This document shows positions 1 to 63,762 of a stretch of DNA of 64,000 bases, one piece after another. The notes beneath the pieces were generated by a model that had not been told where the DNA came from, searched no databases, and saw only the letters and a program-made list of their open reading frames with translations. The stretch's first letter is position 1. Every line of letters begins with the position of its first letter. A program made the position numbers and the translations under genes. The DNA is from Hamiltosporidium tvaerminnensis (lineage: Eukaryota > Microsporidia > Dubosqiidae): assembly GCA_022605425.2 (NCBI GenBank), contig CM061255.1:62001-126000 (forward strand), in the 5' to 3' direction.

Positions 1-610
1 AATCATTTTGATGTTCTGAGTTGTGTGCTCGTGCATAAATTACATTTTCCAAGGCTTGTTCTGGGTTTAAATCGTATCTAATTGCTATTTCTTTAAGTCT
101 TTCTGGTCTGAAAGTTCCTTCTGTGTCTATGAATGCAGCTTTGTATGTGGAATTGAGTAGTTGTACGGTTACACAGAGTGTGTGAGAAAGTTGTGTTTTT
201 CCTGTTCTAAATTCTCCAAATACTTCTGTTATAGCCATAGTTTGTATACCGCCGTTTAAAAGGGTGTCAAAATCTGACGATCCGGTGGATATTTTAAGGA
301 CTTGTTCTCTTCGACAGTTAAATTGAGAGGCTGTCATAAATGAGGTGGTAGGTGTTAAAGAAGAGTCAAAGAATTTATGGACCGCTTCTTTCATTTTATC
401 TACTTTTGTTTCACTCATACCTTTGATTTTTATAAGATTACGACGAGTGTGCATTGTTAGTCCTTTCAGTGTACAGATGCCTGCTTGTTTTAGTTTAAGG
501 ATGTCTTGACTTGCAATACCAAAGTTTGACAGGTCATCGATTGGGTGTAAGGTTTCTTCTTCTGAGTCTTTCATCTGCTCTGAAAGAATTGTTTGTTCTG
601 TTTCAATCAT
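1..610 (-). CDS. DMC1: DMC1-type meiotic recombinase (RecA/RAD51 family), C-terminus outside the window
   Basis: RecA/RAD51-family strand-exchange ATPase; DMC1 works with RAD51 on single-stranded DNA in meiotic recombination. The ATG is at 608-610 and the frame stays open to the window edge, giving about 203 residues of a usual ~340. Residues ~28-75 form the helix-hairpin-helix DNA-binding N-domain ([16 protein letters not shown], then [14 protein letters not shown]). Residues ~131-138 are the Walker A box GEFRTGKT, followed by [12 protein letters not shown], which is the DMC1 form; RAD51 has [25 protein letters not shown] and [10 protein letters not shown] follow as in the family. One residue pattern (SEHQND at the edge) is where the sequence ends. 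No frame break is seen, so the gene appears intact as far as visible. The family call is very secure; DMC1 over RAD51 is likely, from the Walker A flank. Its presence argues that the organism can carry out, or recently could carry out, meiosis. Confidence 0.93.
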
Positions 611-3679: not shown

Positions 3680-4405
3680 TAATCAAAAATATCACATATT
3701 TTTAAAACAGTGGCAAGTGTTAGATTTGTTTTCATGACATTAACGCAGTTCTAGGTTTAGAATAAATGACTGCTACTCCAACACTCCATCGGTAACCCCT
3801 GCGATATCTACGTCCCAAAGCCTTTCATCTAACAGGTGTGTAGAACCTAATTAATTGGCAAAACAGTTGCCCGAAGTTCGATAATGTCCGTTGCATGGAG
3901 TGTGATCGAAGGCCGAAGCCCCCCCTGGGCTCCCCCAAGACTATGCAGCATTCCCACTTACTCTACACTTTCTGAACCCAATAAAATTCTAGCTAAGATA
4001 TATTTCAGAGACTTACATGGGGTCCACCTAGACAGTGCAATGTCATACCACAGGTATAACCTGCTACTTAGCTTTCCTGGCTTTATATGGTTTTTATTTT
4101 TATATCTCTCAGGCACTAAGTCTTCTAACCCGAGTGATCAAGGCTATGTTTCCATGCTTTTACATGACAATTACCTACATGTTCAGCTGCGGTCTCCGAT
4201 CTAGTTACATAAAAAACTACAAATAAATTTGTAGAAAAAGTTTCTCCATTTCTCAGACCTCTCCCCCTCATAACAATTCCCATGGAAGAACCAAAGATGT
4301 AGTGTGCTTATATTCCCGTTAAAAATCCAAAAATTTATCTTAACACCAGTTTACCATACTCATTGCCAAGCAGAAGGTTTTTTATGTGGTTATCCACCTT
4401 CCAGC
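3680..4405 (-). mobile_element. 0.72-kb interspersed repeat, family 1, copy A
   Basis: Near-full copy of the repeat also found at 8513, 15977, 35048, 43535 and 57652. The orientation is set by the 5' head GTGGAGGGAGGATAACCACA, here degraded at the right end (plus strand TATCCACCTTCCAG). The 3' end is AT-rich. The inner part is over 90% identical by eye to copies B and D, including a run of seven C before TGGGCTCCCCC. It is more GC-rich than the flanks and has no conserved open frame: the 106-codon frame at 3884-4204 is not kept in other copies. No clear target-site duplication is seen. Confidence 0.85.
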
Positions 4406-4630: not shown

Positions 4631-6472
4631 ATGAATACCAGTGATAGAAGTATTTCTCATTTAAATAGAATTTTATCGCTTACAAAATGTAAAAACTGTT
4701 TCAAATATAAAATTACAAAAATGAAAATACAATGTCGACATCTTTTATGTTCTGAATGTGATACACTAAGTTGTAAAATATGTTCTAAACATAGTATAGG
4801 TATTGATATACATGTATATACATTTCTTCATGACTTACTTAGTCGTAATTGTAATGAATTAAATGAATTTAAAATTTATCGTAAAAAAGAAGATATTTGG
4901 GTGGAAAGTCAGGAAGTTTTTGAGGAAAATATTTGTGTGAAGAATAATCTTTATAAATATAAGTACGAATCTGAAAAAGAAGGCAAACAGGAATTTTCTG
5001 ATTTGAAAGGAGAAATTATGAATTTAAAAAATATGTTTTTTGGTGAAGAAAAAAATGCGGTGGAAAATAAAAAAAATAATGAAAATGAACCGATTTCTAC
5101 TTTGGCTGAATCTTCATTTGCTATTCCGTTTACAAGTCCCGTTTCAACACAGAAAAGTAATAACGAAAGTAAATTCACTCAATCTGTATCTTCTGATATT
5201 CCAAAAGAAAAGGAAATTAAAAATAAAGAAACCTTATGTGTTACAGGTTTTGATAAAAATATGAATTTAAGAGATAAAGAGAGAACATCTAGACTTATAA
5301 AGGAATCGAAATACGATATAACTGGGAAGAAAATTTCAAATAAAAATAACGAGAATATTGATAAAATTAGTACAAATTTTACAGAAATTTTAAATAAAAA
5401 TAATGAAAATATTGATAAAGTAGGAACAAATTGTACAGAAATTATAAAAAAAGAGAAGCAAATTTTAAATAAAAATAATCAAATTGTTGATATAATGAGT
5501 AAAAATGGTAGAGAAATTATAGAAAAAAATGAGAAGCAAATTTCTAAAAACCGTTTCGATGGTATAAAAATTACCGAAAATGAAACCAACCCCATCATTA
5601 CAACAGAAGATCATCCAAATTCCGAATCAAAAATTTTAAAAAACATTAAAAACTCAATCGAAGATAAAAATATCGATTCTCACAAAAAAACCAAACACGA
5701 AATTTCACCTGAAAAATCTTCTAAAAACCCAATTATTTCACTGACAACAAAATCATGGAAAAATAAAATCACAAAAAACGAAAACTCAACAGAAAATCAA
5801 AACAACTTCTTGCCAAATTTAAAATCCGAACCCCCAAAAAATATAAAAATTTCTCTCCAAAATTCTCCAAATCAGGTAATTCAACCCGAAATACAAAATC
5901 AAACAAATTTAGATGCCTTCGTATTTCTAACCAGTGGACTGTCTTCAGAAGAAAATATTTTTATTTCAAAAACCTTCTGGTCGCTACAAAATAAATTAAA
6001 CATTCCAATCGAAATAAAATCCGAATATTCCTCTTCAATTACACATCTGATTGTAAATATCGATAAAAATGGTTGTTGTTTACGAACATTAAAATATTTA
6101 TTGTGTATTTTGAACGGAGTTAAAGTTGTGTCTTATTCTTGGTATAAAAAACTAATTAAAGTACCTTCAGTAGAAGAAAAGGATTATTTTATAAAAGGTG
6201 ACAATATTTCCGGGGGAAATAACGTTCCTTATCAAATTTATAAAAATGCTCAAAATGGTATTTTTTATTTCAATAAAATTAATTTTTTAATTGAAAAAAA
6301 ATTTATTACAAAAGATTTAAGAAAAGTCATTAAAAATGGAAAAGGAAAAATAAATGAAAATAATTTTGAATTTACCAATTTAAAAGTTCAAAATGAAAAA
6401 GAAATTTATAATTTTATTTCAAATGGAACTTTTCTTAATTATAAAGCGATAAAAAAAGGTAATTTATTGTAA
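4631..6472 (+). CDS. BRCA1/BARD1-like protein: RING finger plus C-terminal tandem BRCT, 613 aa
   Basis: Probable RING E3 ligase/phosphopeptide-binding protein of DNA-damage response. Residues 20-51 form a C3HC4 RING: C20-x2-C23-x11-C35-x-H37-x2-C40-x2-C43-x4-C48-x2-C51. The x11 spacing equals that of BRCA1; the last loop is the shortest allowed. A helix-like IDIHVYTFLHDLLSRN follows, as in BARD1/BRCA1. Residues ~60-420 are Lys/Asn/Glu-rich and probably disordered, with three ~23-residue repeats (NKNNENIDKI..N.TEI) at ~237-308. Residues ~427-515 are BRCT1: SGLSSEE (S435), THLIV, RTLKYL (R485, T486, K488) and VVSYSW (W504) line up with BRCA1 VSGLTPEE, THVV, RTLKYF (Arg1699, Thr1700, Lys1702; Ser1655) and VVSYFW, so the phosphoserine pocket is kept. 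KGDNISGGN follows like BRCA1 RGDVVNGRN. Residues ~541-613 are a short, divergent BRCT2. There are no ankyrin repeats. Start supported by the adjoining C-rich block. Family is strong; BRCA1 versus BARD1 is not settled. Confidence 0.85.
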   Translation: MNTSDRSISHLNRILSLTKCKNCFKYKITKMKIQCRHLLCSECDTLSCKICSKHSIGIDIHVYTFLHDLLSRNCNELNEFKIYRKKEDIWVESQEVFEENICVKNNLYKYKYESEKEGKQEFSDLKGEIMNLKNMFFGEEKNAVENKKNNENEPISTLAESSFAIPFTSPVSTQKSNNESKFTQSVSSDIPKEKEIKNKETLCVTGFDKNMNLRDKERTSRLIKESKYDITGKKISNKNNENIDKISTNFTEILNKNNENIDKVGTNCTEIIKKEKQILNKNNQIVDIMSKNGREIIEKNEKQISKNRFDGIKITENETNPIITTEDHPNSESKILKNIKNSIEDKNIDSHKKTKHEISPEKSSKNPIISLTTKSWKNKITKNENSTENQNNFLPNLKSEPPKNIKISLQNSPNQVIQPEIQNQTNLDAFVFLTSGLSSEENIFISKTFWSLQNKLNIPIEIKSEYSSSITHLIVNIDKNGCCLRTLKYLLCILNGVKVVSYSWYKKLIKVPSVEEKDYFIKGDNISGGNNVPYQIYKNAQNGIFYFNKINFLIEKKFITKDLRKVIKNGKGKINENNFEFTNLKVQNEKEIYNFISNGTFLNYKAIKKGNLL

Positions 6473-58220: not shown

Positions 58221-59484
58221 GCGATTATAAAGTTAGCAAGATTTTTATTCTATCAAAATTGCAAAAAAATATTTTTCTACCTATTTTACATTAAATTTAC
58301 GAAGCAGATGATTTATAAGTTTTTATCACCCGCCATCATATGATTTAAAACTGTATTTAACGAAATATTCAATATAGAATAGTTTTTTACGATCAAAGCT
58401 TAAAATTTTAGCAAATAAATACATCTTTCACTTTTTAATTTACAATTATTTAATATAGTTTATATAAAGTAAATAAATCATTAAAACCATAAATAAAAAA
58501 TGAAATGATTAAGTGTATTTAAAATCCGTAATAATACTTTTTAGGAAAAACGATCTGAAGACTGTTATTAAAAAATAATTTATATTTATTCTTATTTTGG
58601 TAATATCACAATATATAAGGCTATATCGGAACGTATTTTACGAAAATAACGATTATTTTTATTTTTTTTACACTTGATTCGATATTCTTTGCTCGTATTT
58701 TTTGAATCGTATTTCTAAGAATTACATTTTATATATTTAAACACTTCTAGCTAACATCTCTATTATTTAACGATATCTTTTACTTGCCGTTAAGTATCAA
58801 AATTTTTTTAATAGATTATATTGTATTTTCTTTAATTCGGCCAGAATGTAAAGTCTTATTGGAATAAACCGTGAAAAATGGTTTTTTTATTTACAAAAAT
58901 TCAGATGTAAAAAAACGTATGAAATTACAGTTCATTATTAAATTGATTGTCTATATTTGAGCTACAAAGATAATTTTATTTAGTAACAATGTTCGTTTAA
59001 ATAGCCAGAGATCATCAGAATCAATTTCTAAGTTTTAAAAAGCATTTTTATATAATTTCTTTCCTTAAAACAAAACTATGTGCATGGCTTTGCCTATTTA
59101 TCGTCCCGTAATTGTTGAAAAAGGTGAATCTAAATTCTTTTTGAAGGTCTATTTAATTTTTTATAGAGAAATACAGATAACTTTGTATTTCATTGAACAA
59201 TGCTACAGTCTTCTTAATATATTTAAAGATTAATACTCCAAAATGATTTATTTTTTATAATACATGCAATCTTTCTTTATATAAATATATAGCTTAGACA
59301 ATAAAAAATATCTGTTCGTGCCTGAAATTTTAGTTATAAATAAGTTTTACTCGAGATAATAATATATTTCTAAATTTATATAAATTGATTGTAATTTGCT
59401 TTTTCTCATCGTAAATACGAATCTAAAACTAGATTTTAATGGTTTATATTTCCAACGCAGTCCAAAACCAAATTTAACTAGTTA
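58221..59484. other. AT-rich spacer
   Basis: Nothing supportable is seen. Confidence 0.4.
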
Positions 59485-61551: not shown

Positions 61552-63762
61552 CTACCCTTTACCTATATACTTCTCTTTAATCTCTTCATAGACTTTCCTT
61601 ACATAAAACACTTTATCTTTTTCTAACTTACTTACTAAACTAAGACCCTTTATTCCCATAGTCTCTATAACCTTTAACATTAGAATAACCCTATATCTCC
61701 AATCATTACTGTTATTTAACATATTCTCAATAATTATTACTTTAAATTCTTCTTCATAGTAATTTAACACCTCCATCATACAACCTATAAAATTCTTTCT
61801 TATATTATCATTACTAACACTTACATCTGTTATTATTCTTTTTAAAGATAAAGAGGTACATTCAAAGACACTTAAACCACTTAATAACTCTGAAATTAAA
61901 TAAGGATAATTAGTACTATTGTTTAAAGGGGTGTTAATATCAATAGAGGGGGTGTTATTACTACTACTGTTGTTTAATAGGGTGTTACTATTGCCTAACA
62001 GGTTGCTATTACTGTCTAACAGTGTGTTATTACTACTGTTATCTAACAGGTTATTACTACTACTGTCTAACAGGGTGTTAATACTATTGTCTAACAGGGT
62101 GTTATCATTACTGTTGTCTAACAGGTTATTACTACTACTGTCTAACAGGGTGTTATTACTACTGTTGTCTAATAACCTATTATCATTACTACTAGTACCT
62201 GTGTTATATGTCTCATCATTAAAGGGTGTTATATTACCTAATATATCATTACTATTATAACACCCTTTATTATCTTCTCCTTCTATAACAGTAATATCAT
62301 CTACCTTTAATTCATTTAACCCTTTATCTTTAGATTTATTTCCTAAAGCCTCTTTAATAGAGGGTAATGAACAAAGGGTGTTAATAATAGGAACAGTAGA
62401 GGTATTATTAAAAGTGTTATCACCAAAGGGTATTTCCTCAGTAGTGTTATTAAAGGGTATTTCCTCAGTAGTGTTATTATTAAAGGGTACTTCCTTATCA
62501 CTAAAGGGTACTTCCTTATTAACACCCTCTATTTCCTTTATAACCTCTTCATCCTTATTAACACCCTCTAATCCCTTTATACCCTCTAATTCCTTTATAC
62601 CCTCTTCATCCTTATTAACACCCTCTAATCCCTTTATACCCTCTTCTTCCTTATTAACACCCTCTAATCCCTTTATACCCTCGTCATCCTTATTAACACC
62701 CTCTATTTCCATTATACCCTCTTCTTCCTTATTAACACCCTCTTCATCCTTATTAACTCCCTCTAATTCCTTATTAACACCCCCCTCTCCTATATCACTA
62801 TACTTACTTTCCTTCCCTTTAAATTTACTGTTATTTTCACTTTCCTTAATAACACGTACAACATTAACAAGCCATTTACATAAAACACTTCTTATTTTAT
62901 CACCCCACATCCAATACATACAAACATAAAGCATAACCATTTCTTTTATATTATAATACTTTATAAAGTAACCATAACACCCTGCTAATGGTATACATTC
63001 ATTTACAGATGAACTTGGTGAATTAAGAAGATTAACAGTTGTTTTTACATAATTTATAAGTAAATTAACAGGTATATCTATAGAGGGTGTTATTATACTG
63101 TAAATACTTTTTAAGTATTCTTTAGAAATATAACTAGTAACAGGGTGATAGGTAGTAAGGGGGTGATAATTATTAGGTGTGTTAGTAAGAGGGTGTTGGT
63201 TGGATGGTGTGTTAATAAGGGGGTGATAATTATTAGTACTGTTGTTATCACCCTGTTGTTTAGTAGTACTATGACTAACACCCTCTAATACACTATCCTT
63301 ATCACTAACACCCTCCATCATATCCCTACTATTGCTAACACCCTCTAATACACTATCCTTGTCATTAACACCCTCTAATACACTACTACTGTTACTAACA
63401 CCCTCTAATACAGTATCCTTATCACTAACACCCTCTAATACACTACTACTGTTATTAACACCCTCTAATACACTATCCTTGTTATTAACACCCTCTAATA
63501 CACTACTACTGTTATTAACACCCTCCAATCTACTACTATCATTATCACCCCCTAATATACCCTTGTTATTAATACACCTATTCCATATAGATTTATAAAC
63601 ATAAAGACATATTTCAATATCAGATTCTATAAGACTATTAACACCCTTTAATACCTCTTTACAATATATTCTATCTAAATATTTAGCACATATTATCTTA
63701 TTAGAGGTGTTAGCATTACAATAATTATTATATATATTATAAAGGGTGTTATCCTTAAACAT
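61552..63762 (-). CDS. Repeat-riddled protein with HEAT-like C-terminus, 736 aa as written
   Basis: Frame from ATG 63760-63762 to TAG 61552-61554. Structured segments are residues ~1-75, ~190-311 and ~612-736. The last 50 residues (NDWRYRVILMLKVIE, then LVSKLEKDKVFYVRKVYEEI) fit a HEAT repeat of the type in the PP2A scaffold subunit (D-W-R-R, then KD--VR), so a helical-repeat scaffold is my best guess, at low confidence. Between them lie three low-complexity inserts: ~79-171, ten-residue units LEGVNNSSSV/LEGVSDKDTV (30-bp DNA period); ~321-416, LEGVNKDEEGIKG-like; and ~427-611, NNTLLDSSSNNLLDN and EIPFNNTT. All are built on the GGGTGTTAA DNA word, in minus orientation in the first two and plus in the third. 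The frame is open upstream of the ATG to 63864, and the true start may be earlier (see 63810-64000). Confidence 0.75.
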   Translation of the reverse strand: MFKDNTLYNIYNNYCNANTSNKIICAKYLDRIYCKEVLKGVNSLIESDIEICLYVYKSIWNRCINNKGILGGDNDSSRLEGVNNSSSVLEGVNNKDSVLEGVNNSSSVLEGVSDKDTVLEGVSNSSSVLEGVNDKDSVLEGVSNSRDMMEGVSDKDSVLEGVSHSTTKQQGDNNSTNNYHPLINTPSNQHPLTNTPNNYHPLTTYHPVTSYISKEYLKSIYSIITPSIDIPVNLLINYVKTTVNLLNSPSSSVNECIPLAGCYGYFIKYYNIKEMVMLYVCMYWMWGDKIRSVLCKWLVNVVRVIKESENNSKFKGKESKYSDIGEGGVNKELEGVNKDEEGVNKEEEGIMEIEGVNKDDEGIKGLEGVNKEEEGIKGLEGVNKDEEGIKELEGIKGLEGVNKDEEVIKEIEGVNKEVPFSDKEVPFNNNTTEEIPFNNTTEEIPFGDNTFNNTSTVPIINTLCSLPSIKEALGNKSKDKGLNELKVDDITVIEGEDNKGCYNSNDILGNITPFNDETYNTGTSSNDNRLLDNSSNNTLLDSSSNNLLDNSNDNTLLDNSINTLLDSSSNNLLDNSSNNTLLDSNSNLLGNSNTLLNNSSSNNTPSIDINTPLNNSTNYPYLISELLSGLSVFECTSLSLKRIITDVSVSNDNIRKNFIGCMMEVLNYYEEEFKVIIIENMLNNSNDWRYRVILMLKVIETMGIKGLSLVSKLEKDKVFYVRKVYEEIKEKYIGKG
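63277..63530 (-). repeat. 30-bp coding minisatellite (LEGVNN/LEGVSD units)
   Basis: AACACCCTC recurs at 63307, 63337, 63367, 63397 and onward at 30-bp steps (about nine units). Alternate units encode SSSV and KD(S/T)V after LEGVN/S, so there is a 60-bp higher-order pattern. The frame is kept throughout. Confidence 0.9.

Follow-up and report, generated by a model that had tools for sequence, protein, structure and literature searches.

A single-copy RING protein with a BRCA1-type BRCT domain, a likely reduced BRCA1/BARD1-like subunit, in the microsporidian Hamiltosporidium tvaerminnensis

The window analysed here is a stretch of 64,000 nucleotides of Hamiltosporidium tvaerminnensis (contig 10, positions 62001-126000), taken from a 17-contig assembly totalling 21,638,905 bases that was also the genome searched throughout (17 contigs and 21.64 Mb in the H. 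tvaerminnensis assembly paper, PMC10542269). Close to one end of the window lies a gene, present as one copy in its own genome, whose product carries an N-terminal RING and, towards the C-terminus, a BRCT domain of BRCA1 type. Its features are as follows.

4631..6472, + strand: the RING-BRCT gene, an uninterrupted frame of 613 amino acids
4616..4630, + strand: C-rich stretch CCACCCCCCTCCCTT, which abuts the ATG and resembles the CCC-like microsporidian start signal
4688..4783, + strand: RING signature, residues C20 to C51, with eight ligands in order and a subtype that is not assignable
5018..5713, + strand: linker of low complexity and variable sequence (residues 130-361), in which 5331-5548 consists of degenerate repeats
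5912..6178, + strand: BRCT1 of BRCA1 type, residues ~428-516, from PDB and reciprocal genome matches
5933..5938, + strand: Ser435-Gly436, a phosphoserine-pocket position by alignment
6083..6094, + strand: Arg485-Thr486-Leu487-Lys488, pocket positions by alignment
6260..6442, + strand: possible shortened second BRCT, residues 544-604, from low-confidence secondary-structure order only

When residues 425-613 were compared with the PDB sequences at E<=10, all 25 matches were to BRCA1 (18) or BARD1 (7), and BRCT1 gave its top BRCA1 match at 38.8 bits (E 1e-8). The human BRCTs are 24-26% identical to the window sequence. In the reverse search the human BRCA1 BRCT recovered the window gene alone from the genome. 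No chain of TopBP1, Rtt107, PTIP or MDC1 was among these PDB matches at E<=10; solved chains of all four are present in the PDB, and the TopBP1/Rtt107-like protein that the genome does encode is the product of a separate gene. The initial annotation had assigned the BRCT region to the BRCA1/BARD1 family and named the TopBP1, Rtt107 and PTIP type as the placement that would speak against it; the matches bear out the former. Alignment with the BRCA1 phosphoserine pocket showed that Ser435, Gly436, Arg485, Thr486 and Lys488 are all present, in agreement with the four pocket residues (Ser435, Arg485, Thr486 and Lys488) proposed earlier. We take Ser435-Gly436 to correspond to BRCA1 Ser1655-Gly1656, and Arg485, Thr486 and Lys488 to correspond to Arg1699, Thr1700 and Lys1702. 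The protein also shares with BRCA1 the words RTLKY, VVSYSW and a KGDNISGGN-type motif, and with BARD1, the second-best PDB family for the BRCT, the words SGLSSE and ILNG within BRCT1. On these sequence comparisons BRCT1 can be placed firmly with BRCA1/BARD1.

Apart from the window protein's own entry, the protein database yielded two relatives, CWI38_2271p0010 (partial, lacking residues 1-6) from H. tvaerminnensis and CWI39_1697p0010 from H. magnivora, and the origin of both in Hamiltosporidium agrees with the earlier view that the genome is microsporidian. No relative outside Hamiltosporidium was found among candidates sharing exact words with the query (3 of 1208 candidates retained at E<=1 and 3 of 140 at E<=10, own protein counted); as exact shared words were needed and candidate length was limited, these searches are not proof of absence elsewhere. 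Comparison of the three sequences revealed no difference from either CWI38_2271p0010 or CWI39_1697p0010 in residues 1-129 or in residues 362-543; the respective counts elsewhere were 17 and 14 across the linker (residues 130-361), 1 and 2 in residues 544-604, and 3 and 3 in residues 605-613, and the H. magnivora protein carries a 24-residue insertion within the repeated linker. Both ends of the protein are thus conserved within Hamiltosporidium, although selection on the domains is not the sole possible cause, since residues 362-427 are unchanged and contain no predicted domain. The final residues (window ~6440-6472, + strand) differ from both relatives as though frame-shifted, which may reflect biology or assembly.

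A CCC triplet occurs within 25 nt upstream of six of the eight genes examined (the window gene, a stand-alone RING on contig 12 described below, BRCA2, RAD51, the TopBP1-like gene and one further frame that we take to be RFC1), compared with 117 of the 2001 ATGs of the window; the DMC1 and CtIP frames are without it. A CCC-like signal precedes most Encephalitozoon cuniculi genes, according to PMC2803860. The GC content of the gene, 24.5%, is inside the range of its surroundings.

BRCA1 is laid out as a RING, a long linker and a tandem BRCT, and BARD1 in animals as a RING, ankyrin repeats and a tandem BRCT. The window protein follows the BRCA1 order of RING first and BRCT last but, unlike BRCA1, comprises only 613 residues. 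We consider it, by a modest balance of the evidence, to be a reduced BRCA1/BARD1-like subunit, present in single copy and predicted to bind phosphorylated repair proteins through BRCT1 at DNA breaks. What the analysis shows directly is the family to which BRCT1 belongs, the residues of its pocket, the ligands of the RING, the conservation of both ends, and the presence in the same genome of BRCA2, RAD51, DMC1 and a CtIP C-terminus, encoded as follows.

Contig 15:130289-132319, + strand: BRCA2-like frame of 677 amino acids with an OB1 domain and one BRC-like repeat
Window 1..610 (contig 10:61585-62610), - strand: N-terminal part of the DMC1 gene, which runs off the window
Contig 6 ~58392-58589, + strand: CtIP frame of 66 amino acids, SAE2/CtIP C-terminus at 33.7 bits (cut-off 19.8)

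The OB1 domain of the BRCA2-like frame scored 63.5 bits when the genome was searched and 60.4 bits on the protein, while its BRC repeat reached 20.9 bits in the former search but 17.0, below the cut-off, in the latter; all three of its PDB matches were to BRCA2. The DMC1 frame matched DMC1 at 420 bits versus RAD51 at 334 bits and lies ~4 kb from the RING-BRCT gene, a closeness that may be chance. As the 66-residue frame holds little beyond the SAE2/CtIP C-terminal motif, it is possibly a minimal CtIP. RAD51 is present as two copies on contig 1 that encode an identical protein. These frames (~1,488,200 and ~1,502,200) lie ~14 kb from one another in opposite orientation, with a copy of the same neighbouring frame beside each of them, and form an inverted duplication.

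Two parts of the case for a BRCA1/BARD1-like subunit are less secure, the first of which concerns the RING. The initial annotation described this domain as BRCA1-like in spacing, and that stands for part of it: all eight C3HC4 ligands are in order and the first six are spaced as in BRCA1, whereas the last gap is 4 residues. Pfam RING matches score below the cut-off, a control comparison detected no BRCA1-specific similarity, and the best PDB matches are the RINGs of the IAPs BIRC7 and cIAP1, above BRCA1. Asn22, Lys49 and Ser52 occupy what we take to be the E2-side contact positions of BRCA1 (Ile26, Pro62 and Lys65), so that the RING differs from BRCA1 there; a RING without E2 contacts is a feature of BARD1. 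That the domain is specifically of BRCA1/BARD1 type is not demonstrable from its sequence. The IAP matches and the short last gap shared with the IAPs would be explained by a domain-shuffled E3, in which a BRCA1-type BRCT is joined to an unrelated IAP-like homodimeric RING; such a protein would be no orthologue of BRCA1/BARD1 and would need no RING partner. We regard this as unlikely. The matches to IAPs score weakly (E 0.006 among 177,635 sequences), Asn22 and Lys49 stand where BIRC7 carries Val and Pro, and, in contrast to IAPs, the RING is N-terminal and Pfam reports no BIR domain. The N-terminal RING and near-C-terminal BRCA1-type BRCT reproduce the BRCA1/BARD1 layout, and a low-confidence AlphaFold2 model predicts helices on either side of the RING (residues 9-14 and 62-71).

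The second concerns the tandem BRCT reported initially, of which BRCT1 is supported and BRCT2 is without sequence support. Only ~70 residues are left for a second BRCT, which is shorter than the BRCA1 domain, and residues 527-613 matched three PDB chains at E<=10, none of them a BRCT. Shuffled versions of residues 534-613 scored as well as the real sequence in 494 of 2000 cases against BRCA1 BRCT2 and in 792 of 2000 against BARD1 BRCT2. AlphaFold2 gave a mean pLDDT of 29.6 for the full-length protein (three near-identical sequences) and 40.4 for residues 425-613 alone, and both models serve as weak secondary-structure hints only. At E<=10 Foldseek returned 1020 matches to the 425-613 model, none of which reached E<=0.001, and no BRCT-named protein was among the best 50 of the 1020. 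In the single-sequence model (mean pLDDT 40.4, hence a weak hint) residues 545-597 run strand, helix, strand, strand, helix, an order that, at low confidence, is compatible with the initial portion of a BRCT domain. The tandem BRCT is unproven. A short C-terminus without BRCT2 signal, last residues that vary among the three sequences as though frame-shifted, and a RING lacking E2 contacts would be consistent with a decaying remnant, in which a BRCA1/BARD1 gene from the fungal ancestor is being lost, its BRCT2 eroded and its RING non-functional. This seems to us very unlikely, as residues 1-129 and 362-543 are unchanged while the linker varies, the frame is open in two species and the eight RING ligands are kept. 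A little less probable again is transfer from the animal host, with an arthropod BRCA1-type gene gained by the parasite lineage and later reduced: the sole strong matches available are vertebrate (a ranking that names no donor, because the PDB is rich in vertebrates) and the word-based searches found no further microsporidian relative, but the low identity to the human BRCTs, the local GC content, the occurrence in two species, the microsporidian start signal and the retention of BRCA2 all argue against it.

If the window protein is a reduced BRCA1/BARD1-like subunit, its RING may be a non-catalytic, BARD1-like half, because Asn22, Lys49 and Ser52 occupy the E2-contact positions, and its flanking helices would then join it to a catalytic RING encoded elsewhere. 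A RING partner elsewhere in the genome had been expected from the outset, and a RING that may be of BRCA1 type was indeed found, although its status as partner is that of a candidate.

Contig 12:866856-867134: stand-alone RING protein of 93 amino acids, the top genome match to the BRCA1 RING

The BRCA1 RING matched this protein at 41.8 bits, with the next genome match at 23.3, and of the natural single RINGs in the PDB it is that of BRCA1 which this protein matches best. Identity is 34% across both flanking helices, and the protein, which keeps CPIC and CPVCK, is the best candidate for the catalytic half. Unlike BRCA1 it has no BRCT attached, and RING2 scores nearly as high, drawing level with BRCA1 once the ligands are fixed; a RAD18 model also matches partly. 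The database search, limited as above, returned only its own entry (one of six candidates). The contig-12 protein is a plausible partner of the window RING in a split ligase on sequence grounds, and the case for it is suggestive, no more. As a pair, the two proteins would attach ubiquitin to chromatin close to breaks and assist BRCA2 in loading RAD51 or DMC1. The fuller proposal, a split miniature BRCA1-BARD1 ligase with the catalytic BRCA1 RING freed on contig 12 and the BRCT on the BARD1-like window subunit, within a stripped-down BRCA pathway of a 677-residue BRCA2, a 66-residue CtIP, RAD51 and DMC1, is tentative, and we would sooner expect it to be wrong than right.

The distribution of BRCA1 in fungi bears on these data. 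PMC3969565 places BRCA1 in early eukaryotes and records the loss of BRCA1 and BARD1 in the model yeasts S. cerevisiae and S. pombe; PMC8483008 states that databases hold no fungal BRCA1 orthologue; and PMC11061109 lists BRCA1 and BRCA2 among expressed Mucoromycota genes, with BRCA1 defined by PF00533/IPR011364, and mentions neither BARD1 nor Hamiltosporidium. The initial statement that the family is missing from most fungi is thus too strong, given the BRCA1-type Mucoromycota matches set against the report of no fungal orthologue. For microsporidia, PMC9053307 deals with the 9-1-1 clamp, PMC13174016 reports that Microsporidia sp. MB has Rad51 and Rad52, and the main text of PMC12134460 contains none of BRCA1, BARD1, Hamiltosporidium or BRCT. 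A full-text literature search, with most subscription papers outside its coverage, found among the papers listed no description of the RING-BRCT gene, no account of a microsporidian BRCA2, and nothing for Hamiltosporidium with BRCT or for BRCA1 with BARD1 and early-diverging fungi. If correct, the occurrence of a BRCA1-type BRCT and a RING with BRCA2, RAD51 and DMC1 in a microsporidian would make the fungal loss later and patchier than reported, and would offer a compact natural setting for assaying what RING, BRCT and BRCA2 do when few other parts are present. It also bears on microsporidian recombination and the presence of sex. Should the split-ligase proposal hold, a fungus-related parasite would have kept a stripped-down BRCA pathway though it was lost in model yeasts.

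Other features of the genome were noted. PI3K/PI4K-type kinase domains occur at several sites. Three kinase frames of 2462-2464 amino acids on contig 1 (1612901, 1645229 and 1681403), ~32-36 kb apart on the same strand, have near-equal PF00454 scores, and a second pair lies at contig 1:1169092 and 1269358, so that the large kinases are in repeated copies. Within the window, an MSVAW-type frame start recurs five times, at 3884, 8716, 16470 (-), 35533 (-) and 44034 (-), against 0 expected in shuffles, which points to an interspersed repeat. A 736-residue frame (window 61552-63762, - strand), without a Pfam match, is packed with LEGVN/KGVSNS-type tandem repeats, and similar repeats also break up a RING and zinc-finger protein on contig 17.
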